DNA of 64,000 nucleotides. Source: Persicimonas caeni (GTDB taxonomy: Bacteria; Myxococcota_A; Bradymonadia; Bradymonadales; Bradymonadaceae). Below are positions 1 to 16,461 of the stretch, one piece after another; the first letter of the stretch is position 1; the number at the start of each line of letters is the position of its first letter. The position numbers were made by a program, and so were the translations under genes. The stretch is from NCBI RefSeq assembly GCF_006517175.1, contig NZ_CP041186.1, positions 5,111,074-5,175,073 on the forward strand, read 5' to 3'. Below the pieces are notes generated by a model. That model did no database searches. It saw nothing but the letters and a program-made list of their open reading frames with translations, and was not told the origin of the DNA.

Positions 1-1362
1 CGCCAGTTCAAGCTGGGCGCGATGTTCAAATCGGCCGAGCAACTCTTCGCCAACAAGCAGTACGAGAAGGCCGCCAAAGAGTACCAGCGCGTGGTCAACA
101 ACGCGCCGGATCACGAGTATGCGCCCAAAGCGCTGAACAACGCGGCGGTCGCCTACGAGAATATCGGCAAGTACGAATCGGCGATGAAGCTGTACGAGCG
201 AGTCTACAATGACTACCCGCAGAATCCGCTGGCCGGCTACGCGCTGTATCGCGTCGCGGTCAACTCGGAGCGCTTCTTCGACTTCGATAAGGCTGTCCAG
301 TCGTACACGCTCTTTTACGACAAGTACGAGGGGCAAAACCCTCAAGAGCTGACCGACATGGGCTTCATCATCGCCGACAAGCGCCAGAACGCGCTGCGAA
401 GCGCCTCGGTCCTCACCGAGAACCTGCAGCGCTACGAGCGGGCCGCCAAGCTCTACGAACAGTATGTGCGTGCATATCCGAGCGCCGAAGATTCTGCAGG
501 AGCTCAGTGGCGAGCGCTCAAGAGCTGGCAGAAGGCTGGCGAGCCGCGCAAGATGATGAAGGCGATCTCGACCTACCGACGCGAATTCGGTGGAAGCGCC
601 GACAAGAATGCCAAGGTCCTCGAAGCGATGATGATGGTCGCCGAGCATTACGAGGACTCGGGCGACGAGCGCAAGGCCACCAAGTGGTACGAAGACATCG
701 TCGAAGAGTTCAAAAAGCGCAGCCCCGAGGGCGACCCGGCGTCGGCCTACTACGCTGCCAACGCCCGCTTTCTGTTGGCCGAAGAGTCCTTCCAAGACTG
801 GAAGGCCATCGAAATCAAAGGAAGCATGAAGCGGCAGGGCCGTCTGCTCAAGAAGAAGATCGAGGTTCAAAAAGAGGTCGCCAAGGAGTTCCAGGAAGTC
901 TGGAGCTACGGAAGCCTCGAGTGGACCCTGGCCAGCACTTTCCGCATCGGCAGCCTCTATCAGGCCTTTGCCGAGTCGCTCTACAACGTGCCGATTCCCT
1001 TCGAGGAGGGCACCGAAGAGTTCGATATTTACCGGATGCAGCTCGACGACATGGTCATTCCGCTGGAGGACAAGGCCATCCAGTACTACGAGCAGACCAT
1101 CGCCAAGGCGCGCGAAGAGAAGGTGGTCAACGAGTGGACCAAGAAGACGCTCGAGGAGCTCAACAAGTTCATGCCGGACAAGTACCCGCTCTACAAAGAA
1201 GAGCGTCGCGAGGTTGCCAAGCGGGCTCGCACCGGCACGTCGTTCATGAGCGCCGACGCCTACGAAGCGAGCACCACCGAGCCTTCCGGCTCGGCGCTCG
1301 ACGAGGGCAGTGATTCTTCGGGAGCCAACGGAGCTGCCGGTGAGCAGGGAGATGACTCGTGA
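1..1362 (+). CDS. TPR-repeat protein (5' end outside window), Glt/Agl-type
   Basis: The reading frame is open from base 1, and the first in-frame ATG at 22 lies inside a TPR helix pair, so the gene almost certainly starts upstream. The visible 453 codons contain successive TPR-like units with the usual A-x-x-x-Y and P-pattern, for example near residues 10-45, 47-80 and 125-160. The tail is acidic and Ser/Gly-rich. No membrane segment is visible in this part. The stop overlaps the next gene by four bases (GTGA), so the two are translationally coupled. TPR proteins of this kind scaffold multi-protein envelope machines. The TolQ/TolR/AgmX genes downstream make a GltD/AgmU-like role in a motility or transport complex plausible, but that is inference from context. 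Confidence 0.75.
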   Translation, partial: RQFKLGAMFKSAEQLFANKQYEKAAKEYQRVVNNAPDHEYAPKALNNAAVAYENIGKYESAMKLYERVYNDYPQNPLAGYALYRVAVNSERFFDFDKAVQSYTLFYDKYEGQNPQELTDMGFIIADKRQNALRSASVLTENLQRYERAAKLYEQYVRAYPSAEDSAGAQWRALKSWQKAGEPRKMMKAISTYRREFGGSADKNAKVLEAMMMVAEHYEDSGDERKATKWYEDIVEEFKKRSPEGDPASAYYAANARFLLAEESFQDWKAIEIKGSMKRQGRLLKKKIEVQKEVAKEFQEVWSYGSLEWTLASTFRIGSLYQAFAESLYNVPIPFEEGTEEFDIYRMQLDDMVIPLEDKAIQYYEQTIAKAREEKVVNEWTKKTLEELNKFMPDKYPLYKEERREVAKRARTGTSFMSADAYEASTTEPSGSALDEGSDSSGANGAAGEQGDDS

Positions 1363-2750
1363 GCCGTACCCAACGTAAACATGCCATTGTCTGGTTGCTT
1401 TGCCTTGCCCTCGGGGGCGCTGCGTGCTCGACGCCCGAGCAAAAGCCCGACGAAACGCAAGAGCAGGTCGCCGAAAAGCCCGAGCAGTCTGCCTCGAAAG
1501 AGGTGCCGCCCGAGGTAGTCGACGGCCAATCGGACGAGCAGGCGCAACAAGAGGCCGAAGCGCTGCCGCAGGCCGACGAGCCTGAAGAGCAAGCGCCGGA
1601 AAGGAAGCCCGGCGAGAAGATCGTTATCGACAGCGACTTCAAGTCGGACCTCGCGGACGCGCTCGAGGCCGCCAAAGATGGTGATCGTGACGCCGCGGTC
1701 AGCGAACTGCAGAGCTTGGCGGATCGTCGCAACGGCGGCTTCTTGGCGGCATTCAACCTTGGCGTTCTCTACGAGCACGAGGGCGACTACCGCAAAGCCG
1801 CCCAGCGTTACTCGCAGGCGCTTCAGAAGAACCCCGATTTTTCCCCCGCGCTGCTCAACCTTGTACGCCTGTACCTGCGGCTCGATCAGCCGCGAGACGC
1901 TGAAAAGCTCGCGCGCAAGTATACCAACGATCGCCCGGAGAATATGGACCATCGCGCGGTCGCCCTGCAGGTCGACTTGCACGAAGGCAAATACGAAGAG
2001 GTGATCCGCAAGGCCAAGCAGATTCTGCGCCGCGACGAAAAGAACGTCGAATCGATGCTGGCCATGGCCGAGGCCAACATCCAGCTCGAACGCGCCGAAC
2101 TCGCCGAGGCGATCTTGGATCGCGCCCACGAGTTGCGACCCGAGCGCGCCGAAATCTATTTCAAGTACGCCAAGATTCGCTCGCAGGAGGAGAAGCTCTC
2201 CGATGCGATCTCCCTTCTCGAGCAGGCACTCCAAAAGCGGGTGAATTTCCCCGAGGCGCACAACAACCTGGGCGTTCTCTACCACGAAGCCGGCGACTAC
2301 AACGCCGCCGTCAAAGAGTTTCGGGCCGCCATCGGTGACTATCCCGATTTCAAAGAGGCGTATCTAAACCTGGGCAACTCCCTCAAGGGCCTGCAGAAGT
2401 ACAAGAAGGCTGAAAAGGCCTTCACGAAGGCGCTCGAAATCGACGCTGACTACGGCGACGCGCTCTTCAACTTGGGGGTGCTCTACCTGGACAGCGACAT
2501 CGAAGGGATCGACAAGATCGCCCAGCTCAACAAGTCGATCGAGTATCTGACGAAGTACAAGAACGCGGCCGGTGGACGAATCGAAAAAGATGACCCCGCA
2601 GGCAAGTATATCGCCGAGGCGCGCAAGACCATCGAAGTCGAGAAACAGCGCCAGGAGATGATGCGTCAGGCTCAGATGCAGGCCGAGGACGACTCGGGCG
2701 ACGAGAGTTCGGAGTCCTCCGACGGCTCGGAAAGCGCCGACGGTCAGTAG
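1359..2750 (+). CDS. TPR-repeat outer-membrane lipoprotein (AglT/GltE-like)
   Basis: This 463-residue protein starts at a GTG that overlaps the upstream stop by four bases. Residues 1-23 form a lipoprotein signal with a GGAAC lipobox, so the mature protein is a lipid-anchored periplasmic protein. A Glu/Pro/Gln-rich linker runs to about residue 85. At least eight TPR units follow (about 90-420), several with the canonical A-x-N-N-L-G and A-L-F-N-L-G signatures. The C-terminus is Asp/Ser-rich. TPR lipoproteins bridge peptidoglycan-spanning complexes to the outer membrane, and AglT/GltE of Myxococcus is the closest functional analogue I can suggest given the following TolQ/TolR/AgmX genes. Its last seven bases overlap the 3' end of the convergent methyltransferase gene. 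Confidence 0.8.
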   Translation: MSRTQRKHAIVWLLCLALGGAACSTPEQKPDETQEQVAEKPEQSASKEVPPEVVDGQSDEQAQQEAEALPQADEPEEQAPERKPGEKIVIDSDFKSDLADALEAAKDGDRDAAVSELQSLADRRNGGFLAAFNLGVLYEHEGDYRKAAQRYSQALQKNPDFSPALLNLVRLYLRLDQPRDAEKLARKYTNDRPENMDHRAVALQVDLHEGKYEEVIRKAKQILRRDEKNVESMLAMAEANIQLERAELAEAILDRAHELRPERAEIYFKYAKIRSQEEKLSDAISLLEQALQKRVNFPEAHNNLGVLYHEAGDYNAAVKEFRAAIGDYPDFKEAYLNLGNSLKGLQKYKKAEKAFTKALEIDADYGDALFNLGVLYLDSDIEGIDKIAQLNKSIEYLTKYKNAAGGRIEKDDPAGKYIAEARKTIEVEKQRQEMMRQAQMQAEDDSGDESSESSDGSESADGQ

Positions 2751-5182
2751 GTCGCCGGAGCGCAGGCGTCCGCGAAGGCGGCCATCGCCGCCTCGTCGAG
2801 ACCGAAGAGGCGGGCAGCTTGTGCGTTGACCGCCTCGAGGGCCTCCTTCGTTTTTTGAATCTCGCCCGATTGGGCAAAGTAATGGCCGGTGCGACATGCA
2901 TCGGCCATTTTTTCGTGGTCGGGATGGCTCGCATCATACGGGGGGATCCCCAGAGGCTCGATCACGCTCGCCGAGATCTGCGTGGACGTGCTCGAAGAGA
3001 GTACTTTCCAGCGAACCGGATCCGACGAGAGAACTCCGCACAAGTAGTAAGCCTCAGCCTCGTCTGCGCAGCCAATATACATCACCTTATCATTCGGCAG
3101 GCGAGGGCGTCCCTCCTCCGTTGGGGGGATCACCGACACGATGAAATCATCTGCCATGTAACGCCAGGCCACTTTGTACGGCTCGAACGTATAGTCGCCG
3201 ATGCGCAAAATGGCATAGAAGGCCTCTTCGCGCGCTGCCTTCTCCCAGCCGGAAAATCCCCTGCGTTTGTCGAGTACCGATCGCATTTCCTCCAAGTAGC
3301 TCTTCGCGAGGGGATACGTGTCAGCCATTGTCTGCGGTGGGATCGCCCGCATCCTGGTCTCTTTGGTGTGAGGACACAGAAGATGCTCGTGACCACGAAG
3401 GTGCCATCGGCCCACATCTCGCCCGCGAATGATCTCGTAGACCAGCGCCTCTTCGAGCATCGTGCATGTCTGTGGGGCTTTGCGTCGGGCTCGTTCGGTG
3501 CGGTTGCGGAACCATGACACGCCAGGACGATCGGTCGAGGCGTCGAGCGGCTCGAGGTAATACACCGCGTTGGCTCCGCCCGTGAAAACACCTGTGCGCG
3601 CGCGGTATGGGTTGTCTCCTTCGAGCTTCTTGGATGCGCGGAGGCAATCGGGATCGCCGATCGTCCAGCGGCTTTTCGGATCACTTGCATCGACCCGACG
3701 AAGTGCCAGTTCGTGACGGCAGATCCGCTCCTCGACCTCGGCGAGGGTCGACCCGCCCGAGAGCTTGCTATTCTCGCCGTCGAGTTCCCACTGCTCGACC
3801 GGAACCGGAAACGATGTCGGCGTTCCTTTGGTCAGATGCCATACAGCCGTCTTCGTGACGGCGTGCTCGAAGACACGAAGCTCGTCGAAGATCGCCACCT
3901 TTCGCAACTCGAGCGGACGATCGGATGGCTTCAAGTGCAGCCGTCTCAGCCCACCAGAAGCGGCGTTCGACGTCATCGAAGCATAACGCAGCACCACCGA
4001 GGCGCGTCCGCCATCAGTTAGAAAGAGGTCGAACGCAACGGCGAGCGCTAACGTCGATAGATCTTCTTTTAGGAACGCGGCTTCACGGCCTGTGCTTTCG
4101 AACAGCGAATAGTGCGCCCAGAGTGGCTCTAGATGCTCTCGATATGGCCGCGAGATATACTCCCAGCCCACCCACGGAGGGTTGGTCAGGATCACGTCGA
4201 CGGGATCGGGCATCCCCTGATCGCTCGATACGAAGTCAGCCTCGCCGCGACATCTGTCGCGCCACATATCCTGTTGATGATGGCTACAACGGGTCAGCGC
4301 AAACTCGAGGGTGTCCGCACAGAGCACCGGCAGGTCGATCGGACCGTCGGCTGGATCGAGATCGTCGCTGATCGACTTGATCAGGTTTGCCTTGGCGATC
4401 GCAGCGGTGGCCGGATTGAGCTCGATCATGCTCAGCTGCTGGAGTGTCGTGAGGCGATCGACTCCAGCACGATGTGCGTGCTCGAGGGCTGCCAGGAGCA
4501 TCACGCCACTTCCGCCGAAAGGATCGATCATGCGCTGATTGGCAGTCCACCGGGAGGCGGCGACGAGCTCCTCGGCCAACCAGAAGGGGGTGTAGTGCTC
4601 GCCCGTTGGATGGAGCAGCGCCTTGGGCGCGATCGCAAGATAGAGCCGGCCAAAGCAATCTTTGTGCGTCTCTAGGAAATCGTGGAGGGTCAGGACGTCC
4701 AACGATCTCAGAAACGCCCGTGCGTATTCGAGATGATCGCCCTCAAACATACTTGGCCACCACCCAAAGTCGAGCGCGTGAGGCGGGTATGCGATGCCGT
4801 GATCGGCAAAGATCGTCCCCGAGGCGATCGCATCGAGGTGAGCGGTGAACTCTCCGTCAGGCAGCTGCGCCAAACTTTCGACTCGCCGGCATCCTTCCGG
4901 ATCGACCGCACATAGTGCACCCAGATTCGCGACGAAGACGACAAAAGACTCGACAGCCATGACGAGCTGCGCAGTCGGTTGGCGCCCGTTGAGGTGCACG
5001 CCGAGATCCCTCGCCATCGCCTCGGCAGTCGAACCCCGCTGGCCCGCGAGATCCCCCTTCAGAAACGTCACATGCTCGGTCCACGCCTGCTGAAGCCCGG
5101 GGTCCATGATGCTGGTCGCGTCGAGAATTGCCTGAAGAAGCTGACGGGCCGGCGCTGACTTTGACGGCAGTAACTGGTCCAT
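2744..5182 (-). CDS. N6-adenine-specific DNA methyltransferase, apparently without nuclease domain
   Basis: This 812-residue protein has the two hallmark motifs of gamma-type N6-adenine methyltransferases: the AdoMet-binding loop D-P-F-G-G-S-G at 220-226 and the catalytic N-P-P-W at 334-337. The segment from about 510 to the end (TGVFTGGANAVYYL, then R-G-R-D-V-G-R-W) resembles the target-recognition half of type IIG/Eco57I-like enzymes. Residues 1-180 show no PD-(D/E)xK nuclease motif, and no restriction gene lies next to it, so it may be an orphan methylase or the methylation arm of a defence system whose partner is elsewhere. It runs opposite to its neighbours and interrupts the TPR-TolQ cluster. 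I saw no Shine-Dalgarno before the start, and the start codon is the first available. The specificity cannot be read from sequence. Confidence 0.85.
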   Translation of the reverse strand: MDQLLPSKSAPARQLLQAILDATSIMDPGLQQAWTEHVTFLKGDLAGQRGSTAEAMARDLGVHLNGRQPTAQLVMAVESFVVFVANLGALCAVDPEGCRRVESLAQLPDGEFTAHLDAIASGTIFADHGIAYPPHALDFGWWPSMFEGDHLEYARAFLRSLDVLTLHDFLETHKDCFGRLYLAIAPKALLHPTGEHYTPFWLAEELVAASRWTANQRMIDPFGGSGVMLLAALEHAHRAGVDRLTTLQQLSMIELNPATAAIAKANLIKSISDDLDPADGPIDLPVLCADTLEFALTRCSHHQQDMWRDRCRGEADFVSSDQGMPDPVDVILTNPPWVGWEYISRPYREHLEPLWAHYSLFESTGREAAFLKEDLSTLALAVAFDLFLTDGGRASVVLRYASMTSNAASGGLRRLHLKPSDRPLELRKVAIFDELRVFEHAVTKTAVWHLTKGTPTSFPVPVEQWELDGENSKLSGGSTLAEVEERICRHELALRRVDASDPKSRWTIGDPDCLRASKKLEGDNPYRARTGVFTGGANAVYYLEPLDASTDRPGVSWFRNRTERARRKAPQTCTMLEEALVYEIIRGRDVGRWHLRGHEHLLCPHTKETRMRAIPPQTMADTYPLAKSYLEEMRSVLDKRRGFSGWEKAAREEAFYAILRIGDYTFEPYKVAWRYMADDFIVSVIPPTEEGRPRLPNDKVMYIGCADEAEAYYLCGVLSSDPVRWKVLSSSTSTQISASVIEPLGIPPYDASHPDHEKMADACRTGHYFAQSGEIQKTKEALEAVNAQAARLFGLDEAAMAAFADACAPATY

Positions 5183-5499
5183 GGGGATCGTGTCAGTGCG
5201 CTGAAAGATGGAGGGGCTTGCTGCGAGAATTAAAGTCGAGGGAACAATGTGTCGATGATGTTGTCCAACCTAGCAGACCGCCGCGAAGGGGCGCTAGGAA
5301 CTCGGCAGAACGCGCAAAGTTCAACAGGTTACTGAAGTTACTGTACATGAGTGAATTCGTAGACTAAGTTATACCGGAATCCTCGGTCACACCCAGTGAC
5401 ACTCATCCACATGGCGTTTGGCGCCAGACAAGGTGGTGTCTTGGAGCGTGTCCAGAGGACGTTGGAAGTAGCAACTGGCTTGACCGTCTGCAACACGAC
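5183..5499. other. Intergenic gap between divergent genes
   Basis: These 317 bases separate the methyltransferase start from the small secreted-protein gene. They must hold the promoters for both directions. The stretch around 5320-5400 is noticeably more AT-rich than the flanks, but I see no convincing -35/-10 pair, repeat or RNA. Confidence 0.4.
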
Positions 5500-5751
5500 A
5501 TGCGATCACCCAAAGACATCCTGCGATTGGCCCTCACGGCCCTGGCACTTGCCGCAGGACTCCTCGTGAGTTCGAGTGCATTTGCACAACAGGGCGTCAT
5601 CGATCTCGAAGAGACCGTGATCAAGGGTCGTATCCAAAAGCCTGAGGCGTTCTACATTCTACAGCACGCCAATCTCGACTACGAGCCCTTCGACAAGAAG
5701 CCCTCGTTCATTCCCGAGCTGCTAGAGACAGTGAAGGAGGAGCCGTTTTGA
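5500..5751 (+). CDS. Small secreted protein preceding the TolQ gene, function unknown
   Basis: This is an 83-residue protein. Residues 1-29 form a clean Sec signal peptide (Arg/Lys n-region, Leu/Ala core, cleavage expected after A-F-A before Gln-Gln). The mature part is only about 54 residues, rich in charged and aromatic positions (QKPEAFYILQ, then DYEPF and SFIPELL), with no Cys and no membrane helix. It lies about 225 bases upstream of a TolQ homologue in the same direction, so it may be a periplasmic accessory of the motor complex. I do not recognise a family. The protein-like composition, the signal peptide and its position support it being a real gene; no good ribosome-binding site is visible. 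Confidence 0.65.
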   Translation: MRSPKDILRLALTALALAAGLLVSSSAFAQQGVIDLEETVIKGRIQKPEAFYILQHANLDYEPFDKKPSFIPELLETVKEEPF

Positions 5752-5975
5752 GACGGCGCGTCGATGAAGCGAATCCCCGCATTGCTGGGCTAGATTCGTT
5801 GTGCTATAGAAGTGACTCCTCGTTTTGGACCGCAAATCCCACATCAATTGGGAGGAGCCAATCGGGATGGTCCGACATCAGGGGCTGCAACAAGATATAC
5901 GAACGGAGCTTTTTTCCTTTCCTTTAAGGAAGCGCCTGAGTAATCAGACTCACTTACCCACGGAGGTAACAGGAC

Positions 5976-6626
5976 ATGAGCGCAATTGCTGAAGCGTTTC
6001 GCAGCGGCGGTATTTGGATGTATCTCATCCTCGCCGTTAGCATTTTCGCCATCGGTATCACCATCGAGCGATTCATCTTTTTGTTCTTTAAGTACAACAT
6101 CAATGCGCAAGCCTTCATGGCCCAGATCCAGAAGCTTGTCATGGCCGACAATATCGATCGCGCCATCAAGCTGTGCAACGCCGCCCCGTCGCGTGCGCTG
6201 CCGAAGGTCATCAAGGCCGGTCTGACTCGCGCCAACAAGGGCGAAGTCGAGATCCAGAACGCCATTGAGGAAGCCACGCTCGAGGTGGTCCCCAAGGTGC
6301 AGAAGCGCACGCCCGCCCTGGCAGTTTTGGCGAACATCGCCACGCTGCTCGGACTTCTGGGTACCATTATTGGTCTTATCGAGGCTTTCGAGGCTCTCGA
6401 GTCGGCAACTCCCGAAAACCGTCAGCAGATGCTGTCGCGTGGTATCGCTCTCGCGATGAACACCACGGCTTTCGGTCTTGTCGTCGCAATTCCGACGCTG
6501 GTCGCTCACCTTATCCTGTCGGGCATGACCAAGAAGATTCTCGACGAGATCGACATGTACAGTGTCAAGCTCGAGAACCTTCTGGTCACCCGCGGAAAGG
6601 GTGGTACCAACCCGCTCGAACAGTAA
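5976..6626 (+). CDS. MotA/TolQ/ExbB proton-channel family protein (AglR-like)
   Basis: This 216-residue inner-membrane protein is preceded by a strong ribosome-binding site (GGAGGT, 8 bases before ATG). Three membrane segments are visible: about 13-35, 108-133 with the family signature L-G-L-L-G-T-I-I-G-L-I-E-A-F, and 150-182 with the polar N-T-T-A-F-G-L stretch that lines the channel. The cytoplasmic loop lies between segments 1 and 2. Members form a pentamer around a dimer of TolR/ExbD and couple proton flow to work in the envelope. Two TolR homologues follow directly, as in the AglR-AglQ-AglS motor of Myxococcus gliding and in ExbB-ExbD systems. A strong hairpin lies between this gene and the first TolR gene. 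Confidence 0.92.
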   Translation: MSAIAEAFRSGGIWMYLILAVSIFAIGITIERFIFLFFKYNINAQAFMAQIQKLVMADNIDRAIKLCNAAPSRALPKVIKAGLTRANKGEVEIQNAIEEATLEVVPKVQKRTPALAVLANIATLLGLLGTIIGLIEAFEALESATPENRQQMLSRGIALAMNTTAFGLVVAIPTLVAHLILSGMTKKILDEIDMYSVKLENLLVTRGKGGTNPLEQ

Positions 6627-6650
6627 GAGCGCATACGTCAGGCGCATCCA

Positions 6651-6700
6651 CTGACGGCCGCAGGCTCGCTGGCGCGAGCCGGCCAGCCTGCGGCCCTCAG
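6651..6700 (+). promoter_or_regulatory. Intercistronic hairpin after the TolQ gene
   Basis: GGCCGCAGGCT (6656-6666) pairs perfectly with AGCCTGCGGCC (6685-6695). The stem extends through one mismatch to CTGA/TCAG (6651-6654, 6697-6700), and GGCTCG/CGAGCC nests inside it. No T-run follows, so it is not a standard intrinsic terminator. It could stabilise the TolQ message or reduce read-through into the TolR genes. Confidence 0.6.
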
Positions 6701-6762
6701 TCGAGCTGACACATGAGGACGGCTCTTGTGTAAAGGGTTGTTCGTCTCAAGGAGGTCATCAC

Positions 6763-7431
6763 ATGGCGCGTCAACGACGCGATGCAGGAGCGGACGGGAC
6801 AGACGAGCTGAACCTCGCTCCCTTCATGAACATGGTCGTTATCCTCATTCCGATGCTTTTGCTGTCGGTTGTCTTCATCAAGATCGGTGTGATCAACATT
6901 ACCGCACCGAAGCTTTCGGTGGGGCCACCTTCGGACGAGCAGCCGGAGAAGGAAGAGGAACCCCTGAATTTGACGATCGCCATCAGCGCGAAGGGTTTCC
7001 GGATTGCTGCCAAGGCAGCGACGCTTCCGGAAATGGAAGGTTGCCCTCGCCCGGGTCCGACGATTTGCCTGGAAGATCAGGACGTCGATGTTGCCGGTAA
7101 ATTCGAGAGCGCCCGCAAGGCGTTCGAGAATGGCAACGCTCCGGCTGGCACCAAGGCGCTCGAAGAAGCCATGGCGGCGTACAACTTTCGCGAGCTTTAC
7201 AACCGGTTGGCCAAAATCAAAAACGAGTATCCGGAGGAGACGATTGTCAACCTCTCGGCTGACTCGGACATGCCCTACTCGGTTCTGGTGCGTGTCATGG
7301 ATGTGGCCCGCTACAAGCTCAAGAAGGACTCGTACAGCGATACCAGCGCGTTCTGGGAGGCCGAATACAAGAAGAGCGGCGACAATTACGCCGAGCTCTT
7401 CAACGACCCGGTACTCTCGGTCGTTCAGTAA
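6763..7431 (+). CDS. ExbD/TolR-family protein with Asn in place of the proton-carrying Asp
   Basis: This 222-residue protein has an AAGGAGG ribosome-binding site. It has the ExbD/TolR layout: a short cytoplasmic N-terminus with the conserved L-N-L-A-P-F before one membrane helix (about 22-42), then a periplasmic domain of about 180 residues containing the TolR-like fold near the C-terminus (SADSDMPYSVLVRVMDVARY). In ExbD, TolR and AglQ the helix begins P-F-(I/M)-D-(V/M); here the codon is AAC, giving Asn23. That Asp is essential for proton transfer in studied members, so this subunit may be structural or half-functional and rely on the second TolR. The periplasmic part has an extra region with two Cys (about 91-101), which could form a disulfide. 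Confidence 0.88.
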   Translation: MARQRRDAGADGTDELNLAPFMNMVVILIPMLLLSVVFIKIGVINITAPKLSVGPPSDEQPEKEEEPLNLTIAISAKGFRIAAKAATLPEMEGCPRPGPTICLEDQDVDVAGKFESARKAFENGNAPAGTKALEEAMAAYNFRELYNRLAKIKNEYPEETIVNLSADSDMPYSVLVRVMDVARYKLKKDSYSDTSAFWEAEYKKSGDNYAELFNDPVLSVVQ

Positions 7432-7464
7432 CCGAGCCTCGTAAAGCGCATACGGAGAAGATTC

Positions 7465-8061
7465 ATGGCGAATCAACAAGAAATGTCGGGGTTCAGCGCC
7501 GAGGAAGAAGAGTGGATCAAGGCCCAGCGCGCTCGTAAGGAGCGCCGCCAAAAAGGGGGCCGTGACGAGGAGGGCGGGGGGTCGATGAACATCAACTCCC
7601 TGATGGACATCCTGGTCATTCTGCTCGTCTTCCTGCTCAAAAGCTACGGCGACCAGCCCATCAAAGTGACCGGCCCGGACTTGCAGGTGCCTAAAAGTAC
7701 CACGCAGCTGACGCCGGAAGACATGACGACGATTACCATCAGTCGCAGCACCATCTTGGTCAACGACAAGAAGGCAGTCGACGTCAAAGATGGCTCGGTC
7801 GATCGCAGCCAGAAGAAAGGCGGCGAGTCGAGCCTGTATATCCAGCCGCTGTTCGACAGCCTGACCGAGGCCGTCAACAAGAAGAAGCGTCAGCAGCAGC
7901 TGCTCAACCAGAAGTACGAGCCGGTCGCCACGATCATTGCCGACCAGACCACGCCTTATCGCTTGGTCACCGAGGTGATGTATACGGCAGGCCAAGCGGA
8001 ACTGAGTAAGTTCAAGTTTGCAGTCATCAAAGGGACGCGGTCGAGCCTCTCGGGCAAGTAA
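7465..8061 (+). CDS. ExbD/TolR-family protein, second copy with Asp retained
   Basis: This 198-residue protein begins 33 bases after the first TolR gene and is surely co-transcribed. A highly charged cytoplasmic stretch (residues 8-38, E/K/R-rich) precedes the membrane helix at about 41-60. The helix carries S-L-M-D-I-L-V-I-L-L, so the proton-accepting Asp48 is present. A periplasmic TolR-like domain follows, ending in L-V-T-E-V-M-Y-T-A-G-Q. Having two different TolR subunits beside one TolQ matches the AglR/AglQ/AglS arrangement and would allow a hetero-dimeric stator core in which only this copy handles protons. Confidence 0.9.
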   Translation: MANQQEMSGFSAEEEEWIKAQRARKERRQKGGRDEEGGGSMNINSLMDILVILLVFLLKSYGDQPIKVTGPDLQVPKSTTQLTPEDMTTITISRSTILVNDKKAVDVKDGSVDRSQKKGGESSLYIQPLFDSLTEAVNKKKRQQQLLNQKYEPVATIIADQTTPYRLVTEVMYTAGQAELSKFKFAVIKGTRSSLSGK

Positions 8062-8222
8062 GTGGGACGCACCGACGCACACGATGGTGAAGAAGTGGCG
8101 GGTGAAAGGGGACGCAAAGACGCGTTATACCGTGCTCTTTGAATCCCCTTTTGCCGCTCTGAAGTGCCGACGAATCACGACGGCACCACGCGTGACGAGG
8201 ACGAATAGTCTGAGGAATCCTC

Positions 8223-9659
8223 ATGTCCAGTAAGCCCGGTAAAAAAATTCTTCGGATTGGTCTTATCCAAAACGGTAAGATTGTCGAAGAGCGCCTGATG
8301 CGCTCGATCAAGCCGGTCACGATCGGCCACGACCTCAATCCCAAAAAGAATACCCTGGTCGTCCCGGCCTCGGATCTGCCGAAGTCCTTCAAGCTCTTTG
8401 AGCCGACTGAAGGCGGCTATCAACTCTTTTTCACCTCGAAGATGAGCGGTCGTGTCTCCCTGGGAGACGGGGTGCGCACTCTCGAGGAGTTGATCAGCCA
8501 AGGGAAGGCGAAGAAGAGCGGCAATGGCTATGTCCTGACGCTTAGCTCGCGTGCGCGCGGCAAGCTCAAGATGGGCGAAGTTACGATTCTCTTCCAGTTT
8601 GTCACACCACCGCCCCCTCGTCCGAAGCCCGTTTTGCCGGCTTCGATGCGTGGAGGCTGGTTTAAGGGCGTTAACCCGTTCCTCGCCGCGGTCATGGCCA
8701 TCTCGGCGGTGATCCAAGTTGGTTTTGTTGTGTGGCTCGAGAGTCAAGAGTGGCCCGAGCAACTCGACGCCGCCAATGCCGAGATTCCGGATCGCTTCGT
8801 CAAAATCATGGCCGAGCCGGAGCCCGAAGAGCCTGAGATCCCCGAAGAGCAGCAACAACCCGAAGAGGGCGAGGGTGAAGGCGAGTCTGAAGCTCAGCAG
8901 GAGCAACCCAAGCCGCAGCCTCAGCCGAAAAAGCAGAAGAGCGAAGAGCCTAAGAAGGACGACAAGCCCAAGACTGCAGAAGAGCGGGCGAAGGCCGAAG
9001 CTGAGCGTCGAAAGCGCATGGCCGAGAAGGTCCGTAAGTCGACCATCCTCCATCAGATTGGTGCGGTGGCCGGTGAAGACGGCAACCTTGCGAATTCGCT
9101 TTCAGAGGGCGCTGGCGACACGACCATGCAGGCGGCCTTCGAAGGCTCGGAAGGCATGAAAGCCGGTGAACTGGGTGCCGAGAAGAGTGGCCTTCGAACG
9201 AGCGGCTCTTCCGACGCCGAAGGCAGCGGCTCAGCCGCCGGTATCGGCGACCTGGGCGCAACCAGCGGTGCCAAAGAGGCGGGTAAAGGTGTCAAGACTG
9301 GCACCAAGAAGGAAGAGACCGTCAAAGCCAAGGTCGACATCAAAGGTGGCGGCCAGCAAATCGGCACCGGCAAGCTCGACGCCAACCGGCTTTCGAGCGT
9401 GGTGCGACGTGGTGCTGGCGCAATCAAGCGCTGCTTCGAACGCGAACTCAAGAAGAACCCGAACGCCGGTGGTAAGCTCGTAATTACTGTGACTGTCGGT
9501 CGCGCCGGTCGCGCCACCAACGTGATGGTCAAGGACAGCGGCATCGGCGGAAGCATGCAGAGCTGCACGAAACGAGCTGTCAAGCGGTGGCGCTTTCCGC
9601 GCCCCAAGGGCGGGGACGTGACCTTCACCAAGACATTTGTTCTGGAAGGTTCTAAATAA
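8223..9659 (+). CDS. AgmX/PglI-type protein: FHA-like head, one membrane helix, TonB-like C-terminus
   Basis: This 478-residue protein has three parts. Residues about 8-125 look like a beta-sandwich (FHA-like: VTIGHD near the start, GEVTILFQF at the end). A single membrane helix lies at about 150-170. A long Glu/Pro/Gln/Lys-rich linker (about 195-275) is long enough to cross the periplasm. The C-terminal 90 residues carry the AgmX/PglI domain, a TonB-like fold: V-V-R-R-G-A-G-A-I-K-R-C-F, then G-K-L-V-I-T-V-T-V, then C-T-K-R-A-V-K-R-W-R-F-P. Such proteins transmit TolQ/TolR motion to the outer membrane; GltG and GltJ in Myxococcus are examples. The two Cys of the last domain are placed as in that family. 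It closes the motor operon. Confidence 0.88.
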   Translation: MSSKPGKKILRIGLIQNGKIVEERLMRSIKPVTIGHDLNPKKNTLVVPASDLPKSFKLFEPTEGGYQLFFTSKMSGRVSLGDGVRTLEELISQGKAKKSGNGYVLTLSSRARGKLKMGEVTILFQFVTPPPPRPKPVLPASMRGGWFKGVNPFLAAVMAISAVIQVGFVVWLESQEWPEQLDAANAEIPDRFVKIMAEPEPEEPEIPEEQQQPEEGEGEGESEAQQEQPKPQPQPKKQKSEEPKKDDKPKTAEERAKAEAERRKRMAEKVRKSTILHQIGAVAGEDGNLANSLSEGAGDTTMQAAFEGSEGMKAGELGAEKSGLRTSGSSDAEGSGSAAGIGDLGATSGAKEAGKGVKTGTKKEETVKAKVDIKGGGQQIGTGKLDANRLSSVVRRGAGAIKRCFERELKKNPNAGGKLVITVTVGRAGRATNVMVKDSGIGGSMQSCTKRAVKRWRFPRPKGGDVTFTKTFVLEGSK

Positions 9660-9834: not shown

Positions 9835-10443
9835 ATGAAAAAACGTTACCCCCTAAATATTTTGACGGCTCTCCTTGTATGCGTGATGAGCACCCAGATC
9901 GCTTGGGGCCAAGGGGCTGGCAACGCTTCTGCCGGGGACGATCCTCTCTCGGAGTTGACCAGCGAAGATAGTCTGTCGCTGCTCGACGAGGACATTGACA
10001 GCCTCTCCAACCAGGAGATGCTCAGCCGCGCGTCGAAGAAAGTCAAAACGATGCGCCAAACGCTGGCTCGAACTGGAGAGTTGCTGGATACGGTTCAAGA
10101 GAAGGAGCGCGACGTCCTGAAGGTCAACTGCATCAACGAAAAGCAGGCGGCCATGAAGGGGTTCGTTAAGGTAAGCGAACAGGCATACGTCAATCTCGAG
10201 ACCGCAGCGCAAAAAGGGGACAACGCCGAGGCCAAGCACAACTACAAGCTTGTCTCGCTCGGCAACCAGCGCGTGAAGAGTCTTTCTCAGGAGGCGCGTC
10301 TGTGCACTGGCGAGGAGCGTCGATTTGCTGGTAAGGGCGACATCGAAGTAGTTCGGCCTGATAACGGCAAAGAAGAAGTCGACGGTCCTGATGAGGGGGA
10401 TATCCTCACCGAAGACCTGCCCGAACTTACGCCGTATCAGTAG
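9835..10443 (+). CDS. Secreted coiled-coil protein at the head of the OPX/barrel operon
   Basis: This 202-residue protein has a near-perfect ribosome-binding site (GGGAGGAG, 4 bases before ATG). Residues 1-26 form a Sec signal peptide ending A-W-G before Gln-Gly. Residues about 55-175 are predicted helical and heptad-like, with two Cys (about 101 and 159). The last 35 residues are strongly acidic. It is followed after about 100 bases by the barrel and OPX genes in the same direction, so a periplasmic role in polymer export, or a role as an exported structural protein, is possible. I do not recognise its family and do not assign a function. Confidence 0.75.
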   Translation: MKKRYPLNILTALLVCVMSTQIAWGQGAGNASAGDDPLSELTSEDSLSLLDEDIDSLSNQEMLSRASKKVKTMRQTLARTGELLDTVQEKERDVLKVNCINEKQAAMKGFVKVSEQAYVNLETAAQKGDNAEAKHNYKLVSLGNQRVKSLSQEARLCTGEERRFAGKGDIEVVRPDNGKEEVDGPDEGDILTEDLPELTPYQ

Positions 10444-10551
10444 ATACTCTTGCAAAATTGCACCGTTTGGGGCACACACGAATCCCCCAAATTGATAGCC
10501 TCGTAATGTTTTGAATTAGCTGTGAAGGCTTGTGCTGAATCGGATTGCCGT

Positions 10552-11895
10552 ATGAATTTCCGACACCCTCGATGGCTCGCTGCTGCGGCCCTGTTTGTTG
10601 GGCTGTTTCCAGTGGGGCAACCTGCAGCCGCCCAGCCAGGCGACGGACTGAAGTCCTCTGACGGTGGATGGAAGTTGACCCCTGCGCTTACCCTTTCCGG
10701 CGGATACAACTCCAACGTCTTCAGAACCGGTGAGGGTGAGGAGTTCTCGTCACCGACGGTGGACTCTCCTTTAGGATACGTCGAGCCGAGCCTGAGGATT
10801 TCTAATCCGGGCGCGCGCAGTTTTCTTCTCGATTTCGACGCTTCTCTACAGTGGGAGCAGTACTTCGGAGGTGAGGTCACCGCCGAGTCAGGCGGGGTCG
10901 TCAACCCTGTCGAACAAAGCGGCCTGAGCGCGAAAGCCGATATTGCCGCCACGTTCAATCCAAAGGGCGACGTCAGCCTGACCTTAGACGAGAATTTCAC
11001 GCGGCTGAACGAGCCGTCGAATTTCACGGGCAACGGTACTTACAACTGGATAGTGAACCGAGCCGGTGCCACGGTGGGCATCCAGCCGGGCGCGGGCATT
11101 TTGGACGTCGATCTCGGCTATCATTGGTGGTTGCACTACTACGAGACGGAGACGCTTTCACAACTGGATCGAAACGAGCACCGCTTCGATTTGGCCGCCC
11201 GCTGGCGCTTTCTTCCGAAGACCGCTCTGCTTGTAGAGGCGGATTACGGCATCCTCAGCTATTCCGACAGTGCGAACGAAGGTGAGCGTGAGGACTTGGA
11301 CGAGCCAGTGTTGGCGAACTTCGGGTCGACACCGTTACGCGTTCAGGGGGGGCTCTCGGGCCTGCTCACTCGACGGATTGCTGTACGAGCTTTGGCCGGG
11401 TACGGCTGGTCGATGTATGAAGAGGGGCCCAGCTTCTCCGGGGTGATCGGAACGGCGGCATTGGCCTATACGTTCGGACGCTTGGACCTGAAGAATAACC
11501 TCGAGTTGGGCTATACTCGAGATTTCCGGAATTCCACGCTGGGTAACTACTATTCTGGTCATACGGTCTTCGCGAATCTGGAGGCCGGATTGTACGAGCG
11601 ATTGGTCGTGATGCGCCTGGGTGGTCGGTTCGAACTGCGAGACTACACGCAGAACATCGACGGCACCCAGAGCGAAGAGGATACCGGCAACTCCTTGAAC
11701 GATGAACTCCTCATCGGGGTTGCGGGCGTTCAGACCAACCTCAACGACTGGCTCATCTTCGATTTGGAGTACAACCTGCGTGCGAATTTCACCGACGACT
11801 TTTACACGGTGCCGTCCTTCGATGGCGAGCAACTCAACTTCGTGCGCGAGTACACCCAACACATCATCACCCTCAGTACGACGTTCCAATACTGA
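10552..11895 (+). CDS. Outer-membrane beta-barrel, likely barrel half of a composite OPX polysaccharide translocon
   Basis: The start at 10552 is chosen over a GTG at 10522 because it places a clean signal peptide at the N-terminus (LAAAALFVGLF core, cleavage after A-A-A before Gln). The mature protein of about 420 residues shows repeated amphipathic strands ended by aromatic residues (for example L-T-L-S-G-G-Y-N-S-N-V-F-R and V-D-L-G-Y-H-W-W-L-H-Y-Y-E-T) and ends in Phe-Gln-Tyr, typical of outer-membrane barrels. The G-Y-N-S-N-V-F-R start is characteristic of the BBP2_2-type putative barrel porins seen in exopolysaccharide loci. The next gene, a short OPX protein, begins one base after its stop. 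That pairing is the arrangement of the composite OPX/beta-barrel exporters known from Myxococcus. Barrel strand number is not determined here. Confidence 0.82.
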   Translation: MNFRHPRWLAAAALFVGLFPVGQPAAAQPGDGLKSSDGGWKLTPALTLSGGYNSNVFRTGEGEEFSSPTVDSPLGYVEPSLRISNPGARSFLLDFDASLQWEQYFGGEVTAESGGVVNPVEQSGLSAKADIAATFNPKGDVSLTLDENFTRLNEPSNFTGNGTYNWIVNRAGATVGIQPGAGILDVDLGYHWWLHYYETETLSQLDRNEHRFDLAARWRFLPKTALLVEADYGILSYSDSANEGEREDLDEPVLANFGSTPLRVQGGLSGLLTRRIAVRALAGYGWSMYEEGPSFSGVIGTAALAYTFGRLDLKNNLELGYTRDFRNSTLGNYYSGHTVFANLEAGLYERLVVMRLGGRFELRDYTQNIDGTQSEEDTGNSLNDELLIGVAGVQTNLNDWLIFDLEYNLRANFTDDFYTVPSFDGEQLNFVREYTQHIITLSTTFQY

Positions 11896-11896
11896 C

Positions 11897-12538
11897 GTGA
11901 CAAGTAGCAAATACCACCGAATCATCTCGCTGAGAGGACTGGCCGTCGTGCTGGTCCTCCTTGCTTTTGTGGCCGGTTGCGCGCACGAGCGCGTGGACCC
12001 TGCCTATTTGGCACTCGTCGAGCAGCAGGAGAAGCAGGACGCGCCGGTCGCCGGTTCTTTGGGCCCGACGGACAAGTTCGAGATTCGTGTCCACGAAGAA
12101 AAGGAATTGTCCGGCGAATATACCGTGTCTTCCGACGGGACGATTAATTACCCGCACATCGGACGTATTAAGGTCGACGGGCTGACCTGTGGACAGGTCG
12201 AGCGTCGAATTACGGAAGGCTTGGCAGACGGGTACCTGCGAAACCCGAGCGTGTCGTGCTCGATTCTCGAGTACAATTCGAAGAAGATCTTCGTCTTCGG
12301 CGAAGTCAAAAAGCCGGGAAGCTACCCCTACAAGACCAACCTCACCATTGTAGATGCGTTCGCCTTGGCGGAAGGGTTCACCGAGCGGGCCAACTCCAAC
12401 GACACGAAGCTGACACGCACCGTCAACGGAGTCGAAGTGCAGGTGCGCGTGCCGATGCAGGAGATCGTCGAAGGACGGCGCAAAAACCTGAAACTTCTGC
12501 CTGGGGATATCGTGTTCGTGCCGGAGTCGGCGTATTAG
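11897..12538 (+). CDS. Short OPX (Wza-like) polysaccharide export lipoprotein, Poly_export plus one SLBB domain
   Basis: The open frame extends upstream into the barrel gene, but the GTG at 11897, one base after the upstream stop, gives a proper lipoprotein signal: Arg-rich n-region, V-V-L-V-L-L-A-F core and lipobox V-A-G-C with Cys28. The 213-residue protein then has a Poly_export (PES) domain (about 48-118, P-T-D-K-F-E-I-R-V and Y-P-H-I-G-R-I-K-V-D-G) and one SLBB domain (about 119-180, V-F-G-E-V-K-K-P-G-S-Y-P). It ends there with G-D-I-V-F-V-P. The C-terminal amphipathic helix that lets E. coli Wza form its own outer-membrane pore is missing, so a separate barrel is needed; the adjacent gene supplies one. 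Confidence 0.92.
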   Translation: MTSSKYHRIISLRGLAVVLVLLAFVAGCAHERVDPAYLALVEQQEKQDAPVAGSLGPTDKFEIRVHEEKELSGEYTVSSDGTINYPHIGRIKVDGLTCGQVERRITEGLADGYLRNPSVSCSILEYNSKKIFVFGEVKKPGSYPYKTNLTIVDAFALAEGFTERANSNDTKLTRTVNGVEVQVRVPMQEIVEGRRKNLKLLPGDIVFVPESAY

Positions 12539-13680: not shown

Positions 13681-14988
13681 ATGAAGATCGCAGTCGTTGG
13701 AACCGGATATGTAGGTCTCGTAACGGGGGCTTGTCTGGCCAATGTTGGCAACGAAGTCATCTGCGCTGACAAAGATGCGGCCAAAGTCGAACTCCTCAAC
13801 GCCGGCGGTATTCCGATCTACGAGGAAGGCTTGGAGACCATCGTCAAACGCAACCGAGCCGACGGTCGCATTCGCTTCACCACCGACACCGGTGAGGCTG
13901 TGCGTGAATCCGACGTTGTGTTCATCGCGGTGGGTACCCCGCCCGACGAAGACGGATCTGCCGACCTCAAGCATGTGCTCGCTGTCGCCAAAGAGATCGG
14001 CGAGAACATGAACGGTCACAAGATCGTGATCTGCAAGAGTACAGTGCCGGTGGGCACATGCGACAAGGTGGCCAAGGTGATCTCCTCGGTGACCGAGCAC
14101 GACTTCGACGTGGCCTCCAACCCCGAGTTCCTCAAAGAGGGCACCGCCATCAACGACTTCCAGTCGCCCGATCGCGTCGTCATCGGCTGCGCCAGCCGCG
14201 AGGCCGCTGAGACCATCGGCGAGTTGTACAAGCCGTTCATGCGCCGCAGTGAGCGTATCGTCTACATGGACGTACGCAGCGCTGAGATGACGAAGTATGC
14301 CTCCAACGCGATGCTTGCGACCAAAATCTCGTTCATCAACGAGATCGCCAACATCTGCGATCGTGTCGGCGCCGACGTCGAGAAGGTGCGCACCGGTATG
14401 AGCCTCGACGAGCGCATCGGGCCGCATTTCATCTATCCGGGCGTGGGCTACGGCGGCAGTTGCTTTCCCAAGGATGTGCGCGCGATCGCCAGCCTGGGCA
14501 AAGAGAACGACATCGACACCAAGCTTCTCGACGCGGTGCGCGACGTGAATGGTTCGCAAAAGCTCCGCTTGTATCACGCAGCGAAGGCGAAATTTGGTTC
14601 GCTCGAGGGCAAGAAATTTGCGGTATGGGGCCTGAGCTTCAAACCTCGAACGGACGACGTGCGCGAAGCGCCGTCGCTGCTCAATATTCGGCTTTTTGTC
14701 GAAGAGGGCGCCCAAGTTGCCGTGACCGATCCGGAGGCCATTGACAATGCTCGCCGCGACCTGGCGGATCTGGGTGACGCCGTCAAGTTTGCCGACGACG
14801 ACTACGCGGTCCTCGAGGATGCCGATGCGTTGTTCATCTTCACCGAGTGGGAAGAGTTCCGCAGCCCGAACTTCGATCGGCTCAAGGGACTGATGAGCGC
14901 TCCGGTCATCTTCGACGGGCGCAACCTGTACCAGCCGGACAAAATGCGCGAGCGAGGCTTCGACTACTTCAGCGTGGGTCGTCCCTAA
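13681..14988 (+). CDS. ugd: UDP-glucose 6-dehydrogenase
   Basis: The 435-residue protein starts with the Rossmann motif V-V-G-T-G-Y-V-G-L and has the family's active-site loop G-Y-G-G-S-C-F-P-K-D with nucleophile Cys261. C-T-V-P-V-G-T and F-L-K-E-G-T-A motifs are also present. It oxidises UDP-glucose to UDP-glucuronate with two NAD+, giving the acidic sugar donor for capsule, exopolysaccharide or lipid modification. A ribosome-binding site (GGAGG) lies just before the ATG. Its place 1.1 kb after the OPX gene suggests that it feeds the polymer exported by that system, although no glycosyltransferase lies in the window. Confidence 0.95.
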   Translation: MKIAVVGTGYVGLVTGACLANVGNEVICADKDAAKVELLNAGGIPIYEEGLETIVKRNRADGRIRFTTDTGEAVRESDVVFIAVGTPPDEDGSADLKHVLAVAKEIGENMNGHKIVICKSTVPVGTCDKVAKVISSVTEHDFDVASNPEFLKEGTAINDFQSPDRVVIGCASREAAETIGELYKPFMRRSERIVYMDVRSAEMTKYASNAMLATKISFINEIANICDRVGADVEKVRTGMSLDERIGPHFIYPGVGYGGSCFPKDVRAIASLGKENDIDTKLLDAVRDVNGSQKLRLYHAAKAKFGSLEGKKFAVWGLSFKPRTDDVREAPSLLNIRLFVEEGAQVAVTDPEAIDNARRDLADLGDAVKFADDDYAVLEDADALFIFTEWEEFRSPNFDRLKGLMSAPVIFDGRNLYQPDKMRERGFDYFSVGRP

Positions 14989-15021: not shown

Positions 15022-16461
15022 GTGCCAAAGCGAAGCCGTCACAAATCGACCGTCACGGCCAGAAGGCTTGCCGCCGTCTGTGTAGTCGCCGTGGTGTTGG
15101 CAGTCTCGCCGCCGGAGACGGCGGCTTCGGATGAAGAGGCTGTTCGCGGCGGTGCTGCCGTCGAGATGGGCTATGGCCAGTTGGGCGAAGACAGCTTTCT
15201 AAACTTGCGACTCAAGCTCGGCTACACCTTCGAGCTTGCGCAAATTGGTTGTGACGAAGACCGAGAGCCTGAAAGTTGCCAGACCCAGCTTCGTCTGGCG
15301 GCCCAGGCCCCGCTGCGCCTTCGCGTCCAAGACGCCACGCCGAGTGAAGGCACGTTGCTTCGGCGTGCAGATTGGGACGAGCCGGGCGACTATCTGCGCG
15401 TCATTCGCACCGTCGAGTACGGGCACCCCACCGAAACCCTTCATGCCAAAATCGGAGAGCTCGGGCCGGTCTCGCTGGGTCATGGCACCGTCGTAGGCGA
15501 CTTCTACAACGTCGTCACCGTCGATCATTACCATCTTGGCGTCACCGGAACCGTCAACACTGTCTACGGCGGCTTCGAGATGCTGCTCGACGACGTCATC
15601 GCGCCGTCTGTGGTGGGAGGGCGCGCGTTCGTTCATCCGTGGTCCTTCGTCGACACCGATAGCATTCTATCGCGTGTGGCTGTCGGAGCGACTGTCGTGT
15701 CGGACGTCAATGCACCGTCCAAGCTCGCCGCCGCAGACACCACGAGCGGCAGAACCGCTGTCGACGATACGTATAACCCGGTGGTGACCGAAGATCAGGC
15801 GACCGGCCTTTTGGGTGTTGACCTCGAGGTGACGCTTCTCGACTCCGAGCATGTCGGGGTGGTCCCGTATGCCGACTATGTGCGACACACCAGTCTCGGC
15901 TCGGGATTGCACGCAGGCACGTTCATCAGTGTGCGTCCGAACGAATCACTCGAGTTTCTCTCGAAGCTCGAGTACCGCCGGGTCGGCGAAAACTACCTTC
16001 CGGACTATGTAGGCCCGCTCTATGCTATCGAGCGCTACCAATTCAAAGGTTGGGGGCTGAACTTGCCTGCGCCGAAGGTGCGCGCGGCCGCGAGCATTGA
16101 CGCTGGGGCCTCGCACGGATTCTCGGGATCGATCACCGCGCGCATGCATCGCCTCTTCAGCGTCACGGCCACGTACGCGGATCATCAAGGCCCGGCGAAT
16201 CAAACCGTACGCTTTAGAGCCTCCGCCCGTCCGGTCGAGACCGTTCAGCTGGGTCTTTTCTACCACAAGCAGAATTTCGACGAGTTCTCTCAGGTCCTCG
16301 ACCTCGACGGTGCATTGGTGGTCGCCGAGTCGCGCGTTGGAATTTACGGGCCTGTCTTCGCCCTGGGCACCTATGGACGCATGTGGCGTCTGGCGGACAA
16401 CGGGCAGTATCAGACCATCGACGACTGGAATGTGGGCTTGGGCGCATCGATGGGTTTTTAG
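15022..16461 (+). CDS. Outer-membrane beta-barrel-like protein, function unknown
   Basis: This 479-residue protein starts with GTG 33 bases after ugd. Residues 1-35 form a signal peptide with a twin-Arg n-region and cleavage expected after T-A-A-S or nearby. The remainder has alternating hydrophobic strands (VEMGYGQLG, LRLKLGYTFEL, LGVTGTVNTVYGGFEMLL, AASIDAGASHGFSG) and ends M-G-F, with a terminal Phe as in outer-membrane barrels. One pair of Cys (about 74 and 83) may form a disulfide in a periplasmic turn. It could be a porin or structural barrel. It is probably co-transcribed with ugd and the PBP gene, with 12 bases to the latter. Confidence 0.7.
   Translation: MPKRSRHKSTVTARRLAAVCVVAVVLAVSPPETAASDEEAVRGGAAVEMGYGQLGEDSFLNLRLKLGYTFELAQIGCDEDREPESCQTQLRLAAQAPLRLRVQDATPSEGTLLRRADWDEPGDYLRVIRTVEYGHPTETLHAKIGELGPVSLGHGTVVGDFYNVVTVDHYHLGVTGTVNTVYGGFEMLLDDVIAPSVVGGRAFVHPWSFVDTDSILSRVAVGATVVSDVNAPSKLAAADTTSGRTAVDDTYNPVVTEDQATGLLGVDLEVTLLDSEHVGVVPYADYVRHTSLGSGLHAGTFISVRPNESLEFLSKLEYRRVGENYLPDYVGPLYAIERYQFKGWGLNLPAPKVRAAASIDAGASHGFSGSITARMHRLFSVTATYADHQGPANQTVRFRASARPVETVQLGLFYHKQNFDEFSQVLDLDGALVVAESRVGIYGPVFALGTYGRMWRLADNGQYQTIDDWNVGLGASMGF

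Follow-up and report, generated by a model that had tools for sequence, protein, structure and literature searches.

The question raised by this locus is what a short OPX lipoprotein and the outer-membrane barrel encoded just before it form together, and what the resulting exporter works with. The window, meaning the whole stretch of 64,000 nucleotides of Persicimonas caeni DNA that was analysed, lies at 5.11-5.18 Mb in a genome of 8,047,206 bases. Judged by its own features, the pair at 10552-12538 is a composite OPX/barrel translocon and seems to be the gate in the outer membrane by which a surface sugar polymer leaves; contact between the two proteins is inferred. The OPX (11897-12538, forward strand, GTG start) is a short D1D2-type lipoprotein of 213 residues, in which Pfam finds Poly_export at residues 54-123 (7.6e-21) and SLBB_2 at residues 129-208 (9.7e-11). 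The SLBB domain is followed by just 5 residues, too few to form the C-terminal amphipathic pore helix (D4) of Wza, which was looked for and is absent, and a Wza-type pore is ruled out for this protein, which satisfies the size criterion for the composite type (at most 280 residues, Poly_export and SLBB, no pore helix). By reading, its lipobox is FVAGC28, the Cys28 of which is invariant in 41 of 41 aligned homologues, and its best solved relative by sequence is a 186-residue chain, PDB 9n9a (5.5e-45), with Wza ranking behind.

The barrel gene (10552-11895, forward strand) runs from the ATG at 10552 to a stop codon at 11893-11895, an alternative GTG start at 10522 being possible, and a single base (11896) separates it from the OPX gene. 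Its product matches Pfam BBP2_2 (3.7e-07), carries a signal peptide by reading and ends in Tyr. The AlphaFold2 model, built on an alignment of 38 sequences, has 18 long strands (mean pLDDT 87, pTM 0.83), and when the top Foldseek chains were aligned to it with VIA-align, the alginate exporter AlgE (4afk) was among the best matches, with Z 20.0 and an rmsd of 4.3 Å over 318 residues; by position and fold the protein is EpsX/Wzp-like. Adjacency of barrel and OPX is kept in dozens of genera, i.e. beyond chance. The original prediction had described this arrangement, a 213-residue OPX with Poly_export and one SLBB domain that stops before the pore helix, preceded with a one-base gap by a barrel with signal peptide and terminal Tyr/Phe features, and had likened it to the composite exporters of Myxococcus; the reading frames, the Pfam spans, the EpsX-sized AlgE-like barrel and the conserved adjacency all agree with it, and the barrel is neither too small nor unrelated, which would have refuted it.

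In M. xanthus, EpsY-EpsX (WzaX-WzpX) likewise consists of a short D1D2 OPX lipoprotein and an 18-stranded AlgE-like barrel encoded a few bases apart (PMC9601211, PMC9603273), and Schwabe et al. found AlgE to be the closest structural homologue of EpsX (PMC9601211). The window pair shares this coupling and differs from EpsY-EpsX in being tied to an Agl/Glt cluster and to a secreted three-helix protein, in having no co-polymerase beside it, and in its OPX, which scores 59.5 bits against the NCBIfam EpsY model with a cut-off of 320. A search of our phylum sample with the EpsY model gave no match over the cut-off, so Myxococcus-type genomes seem to be absent from that sample. Composite translocons have been counted as widespread (PMC9601211, PMC9603273), and the survey in PMC9601211 retained only OPX genes with a polysaccharide gene at most 5 genes away.

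What precedes the pair was missed by the original prediction: the composite translocon is supported, but the interpretation was incomplete, as a cluster of Agl/Glt motor genes lies upstream and probably changes what the exporter works with. The barrel, the OPX and the secreted three-helix protein form the end of a cluster of GltC, D, E, F, AglR, Q, S and GltG homologues (window 1-9659 and further upstream), all those inside the window lying on the forward strand. A GltC-like gene (NCBIfam GltC, 2.8e-18) precedes the reading frame of a GltD (AgmU)-like periplasmic TPR protein, which totals 1284 residues, starts about 2.5 kb before the window and occupies 1-1362 with its C-terminal part; its assignment rests on TPR content, length and position (TPR/YbgF-type matches; protein cluster c5, present in 31 loci). 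It is followed by a GltE (AglT)-like TPR lipoprotein of 463 residues (1359-2750; NCBIfam GltE 2.3e-19, under the equivalog cut-off), with a position and length like those in M. xanthus (PMC3169522), and by a GltF-like small secreted protein of 83 residues (5500-5751; protein cluster c9, present in 24 loci, no NCBIfam match); M. xanthus GltF has 89 residues and lies between gltE and gltG (PMC3169522). Next come an AglR-like MotA/TolQ/ExbB proton-channel subunit (5976-6626; Pfam MotA_ExbB 3.2e-26), two TolR/ExbD-like subunits at the AglQ position (6763-7431; Pfam ExbD 2.3e-12) and the AglS position (7465-8061; Pfam ExbD 1.4e-10), and a GltG-like TonB-type transducer of 478 residues (8223-9659; NCBIfam GltG 1.3e-36, under the equivalog cut-off, and myxo_SS_tail 1.6e-22, over its cut-off; alignment A3). 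By these matches and by position the gene set of the Agl/Glt core complex is present. Since the NCBIfam equivalog cut-offs were not reached, we call the genes homologues only, and they are not shown to be the gliding proteins of M. xanthus. Promoter and terminator scans gave results at chance level, so the operon structure is not established.

The Agl/Glt core is a proton-driven machine from which the gliding and the spore-coat assembly of Myxococcus derive. In 2011 Luciano et al. defined it as aglR, Q, S and gltC, D, E, G and gave its role in bacteria that do not glide as unknown; the main text of their article names no polysaccharide exporter with it (PMC3169522). The window holds the same genes in one cluster, GltF included, and unlike the core complex as described it continues into a barrel and an OPX. 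Two features of cluster layout may be recorded here. A DNA methylase-like gene on the reverse strand (2744-5182; N6_Mtase 6.8e-08) splits the window cluster between GltE and GltF, an insertion not seen in the relatives of the class that were laid out, and in locus L076 a 353-residue secreted protein (4150-5211) precedes the GltC-like gene and could correspond to an additional core-complex gene that Luciano et al. mention.

A membrane Asp for proton binding is expected in both TolR-like subunits of the core complex; in the window the subunit at the AglQ position carries Asn instead, while the gene content still fits. Asn replaces Asp at this position in 62 of 79 homologues (Asp in 7, 10 unresolved), whereas the subunit at the AglS position retains Asp in 76 of 82 (the pattern left 6 unresolved), and the channel may differ. 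For M. xanthus, a D28N exchange in AglQ is reported to stop proton conductance altogether and to leave the machine paralysed (PMC3858216). That Asn occurs here naturally suggests that the dimer is mixed, with a single functional Asp, possibly an asymmetric motor with Asn in the first subunit and Asp in its neighbour; the naming of the first subunit as AglQ rests on gene order only.

Between GltG and the barrel lies the gene at 9835-10443 (forward strand), for a protein with a signal peptide, a three-helix bundle and an acidic tail ending in LTPYQ, which the original prediction had called a coiled coil and a possible third component. We find that it is a genuine partner of the pair. A homologue was detected by profile search in 245 of the 379 phylum genomes sampled, nearly always just before the barrel, and when 40 loci outside the window's class were seeded with this family alone, the barrel followed directly in 36 of them (20 of 20 and 16 of 20, one miss being a contig end) and an OPX was nearby in 24. 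The conserved co-occurrence thus upholds its role as third component, and only the label needs replacing, a disulfide-type three-helix bundle being the better description. In the AlphaFold2 model the three helices have a core pLDDT of 90-98 and disordered ends, and the two invariant cysteines of the family, C99 and C157 (alignment A1), fall close to where helix 2 begins and helix 3 ends, positions that suggest a disulfide between them, as far as a predicted structure can tell. Neither Pfam nor NCBIfam has a model for the family, those of its members that were scanned with NCBIfam gave nothing, and Foldseek returned no solved structure at E 0.001 or better, only many generic helical bundles. 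Whether this is the GltH of M. xanthus is not settled; GltH is reported to have 209 residues, to be encoded next after gltG, to be located in the outer membrane and to match autotransporters weakly (PMC3169522). Several MAGs labelled Archangium or Myxococcales have one more gene inserted after GltG and before the three-helix protein (L203, 11333-11773; L234, 11375-11842; L259, 12406-12849), which we considered as GltH in those labelled Archangium and rejected, as by reading it resembles a cyclic-nucleotide-binding protein. In locus L138 (9313-10416) a gene of the three-helix family is present twice in tandem, and neither barrel nor OPX accompanies it.

How firmly is the exporter linked to the motor? 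An OPX was found in 56 of the 58 relatives' genomes searched, and among 40 OPX-centred loci of the class, 36 of which had enough upstream sequence, GltG lies upstream of the three-helix, barrel and OPX genes in 33, mostly together with AglR-Q-S and across seven families, most of those in the class. The remaining three all belong to one family (f5), in which the triplet and a co-polymerase are on one contig and AglR-Q-S-GltG on another, GltD-GltE standing behind the co-polymerase in two of the three. An independent scan of named genomes seeded with GltG alone returned 80 loci, and in the 60 with at least 5.5 kb of downstream sequence the 7 kb after GltG contained all three partners in 45, the three-helix protein and barrel in 6 and barrel and OPX in 5, that is a barrel in 56 and an OPX in 50; this set includes MAGs labelled Anaeromyxobacter dehalogenans, Archangium, UBP6 or Spirochaetales. 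Some genomes recur across the locus sets, which are not additive. None of the three partners was found beside any other full-length GltG paralogue in the window genome (at 6.42, 0.90, 1.13 and 0.46 Mb), and among 23 OPX loci without a glt link this barrel family is absent from 22, a control that omits L277 (part of a linked locus, fetched a second time) and in which some loci extend only 1.5 kb to each side. On a tree of 99 OPX proteins the glt-linked label needs 2 changes, against a mean of 20.9 in label shuffles, and a single clade of linked proteins is not rejected (p-AU 0.28); the motor-linked OPX are nearly one lineage.

Based on these data we propose that the locus encodes one envelope-spanning machine in which an Agl/Glt motor is joined to a composite translocon, a reading that we regard as rather probable and for which there are no expression, interaction or mutant data. 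Its motor part would comprise AglR-Q-S, the TonB-like GltG and a periplasmic and lipoprotein scaffold of GltC-D-E-F, its translocon part the three-helix protein, the 18-stranded barrel and the short OPX. A Wzx/Wzy system with its co-polymerase would make the polymer, which would cross the OPX ring and exit by the barrel, while the motor would act through the periplasmic C-terminal domain of GltG on the outer-membrane side, where GltF and the three-helix protein are candidate contacts. Most likely the proton-driven motor acts on the exporter or on its polymer, a coupling inferred from genes only; export through the pair and motor-driven gliding or polymer movement are likewise inferences. The phylum-wide linkage suggests that the motor works on sugar export. 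What can be read from the DNA is the parts, their order and their conservation, and the contact between motor and translocon, the direction of force and the identity of the polymer are deduced.

The nearest parallel is in M. xanthus, where AglR has both GltG and NfsG as binding partners and the Nfs complex is driven around the spore by AglRQS, along with the Exo polymer, for which the OPX ExoA is the exporter (PMC3858216). An Agl motor and a Glt-like scaffold there act on a polymer that a short OPX exports, as is proposed for the window, but the motor genes, nfs and exo each have a locus of their own and the action of the motor is placed after export, whereas the window genes form one cluster. 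By this analogy the motor might pull or gate the translocon, or might shift translocon and polymer over the cell surface. As agl mutants of M. xanthus still deliver slime and Exo polymer to their surface (PMC3858216), we regard moving or anchoring of the polymer after export as no less likely than direct powering of export, and make no firm choice between them.

The same observation that the M. xanthus motor is not needed for export itself may, by analogy, speak against a single machine, as do the separate contigs of motor and triplet in family f5, the Myxococcota loci with three-helix protein and barrel in which no OPX was detected, and the distance of 1.5 Mb to the synthesis genes in the window genome. 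The chief alternative is an ordinary composite translocon clustered with Agl/Glt for co-regulation only, the polymer leaving unaided and the motor handling it later or doing something else. In its favour, besides the split in f5, M. xanthus exporters lie in loci of their own (PMC9601211) and function without Agl (PMC3858216). We nevertheless think it unlikely, while leaving it some room, because order and tightness are kept over most of the phylum with this GltG lineage only and not with its paralogues, and because the linked OPX is nearly one lineage.

Composite translocons and the Agl/Glt core complex are each already known, and we found no genetic link between them in the open literature, a statement that does not cover the opinion article of Agrebi et al. 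2015 on capsular biogenesis and surface motility, which may mention such clusters. The function of the Agl/Glt core outside Myxococcus was unknown in the 2011 description and the relation between slime and the gliding motor is still open; a phylum-wide cluster of motor and polysaccharide exit gate would be a concrete and testable answer to both questions. If the proposal of one machine holds, this is a polysaccharide exporter with its own proton motor. Independently of that, the three-helix protein adds a new conserved component to composite translocons. We also entertain, more tentatively and short of even confidence, that the ancestral task of Agl/Glt was proton-driven polysaccharide export, the motor energising or dragging the OPX/barrel, and that Myxococcus came to glide and to wind its spore coat after the motor had parted from the exporter genes.

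The rest of the window genome bears on whether a polymer passes through the pair at all. A single OPX and a single BBP2_2 barrel occur in the genome, and its one Wzz-type match is weak and misses the family cut-off; this protein, a co-polymerase of 737 residues that includes a tyrosine-kinase domain, is encoded at 3.58 Mb, 1.5 Mb from the pair. Its gene belongs to a Wzx/Wzy-type locus that also encodes a flippase and, by reading, a polymerase-like membrane protein, together with sugar-nucleotide genes and glycosyltransferases, and as the genome has a sole OPX and one co-polymerase locus, the pair is by elimination likely the exit for that pathway, which remains an inference. Only in other families does a co-polymerase, with a kinase domain, stand beside the OPX, directly after it or within a few genes. 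It could be argued that a force-transmitting or gliding machine took over OPX ring and barrel as its anchor in the outer membrane, with no polymer passing through them, given that the pair is embedded in a Glt cluster, that Persicimonas caeni glides (PMC7188933) and that no synthesis genes adjoin the pair in most loci of the family Bradymonadaceae. We consider this improbable in view of that sole OPX in a genome with a Wzx/Wzy and co-polymerase locus, the co-polymerase adjoining in other families, the fit of the barrel to AlgE, and a second Glt locus more like the Myxococcus gliding locus than the window cluster. This second locus (L295, G000:C1:1117301-1137300, at 1.13 Mb) has GltD, GltE, GltF, a GltG of 741 residues and a TPR protein that measures 2518 residues or more; it lacks barrel and OPX and is a candidate for the gliding machine of the genome. 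Three further GltG-like genes (L293, L294, L296) have no recognised Agl/Glt partner adjoining.

That barrel and OPX are mere neighbours, the barrel being a general porin, can hardly be upheld: Occ-type porins do score level with AlgE against the barrel model in VIA-align and some Myxococcota loci have the three-helix protein and barrel without a detected OPX, but the median gap between barrel and OPX is 9 bases over 121 pairs (some genomes counted twice) and a short OPX without pore helix needs a separate pore. Two genes downstream of the pair lies a UDP-glucose dehydrogenase homologue (13681-14988). It is followed on the forward strand by a 479-residue protein (15022-16461) that belongs to no Pfam family, homologues of which adjoin the same cluster in L036 and L046.
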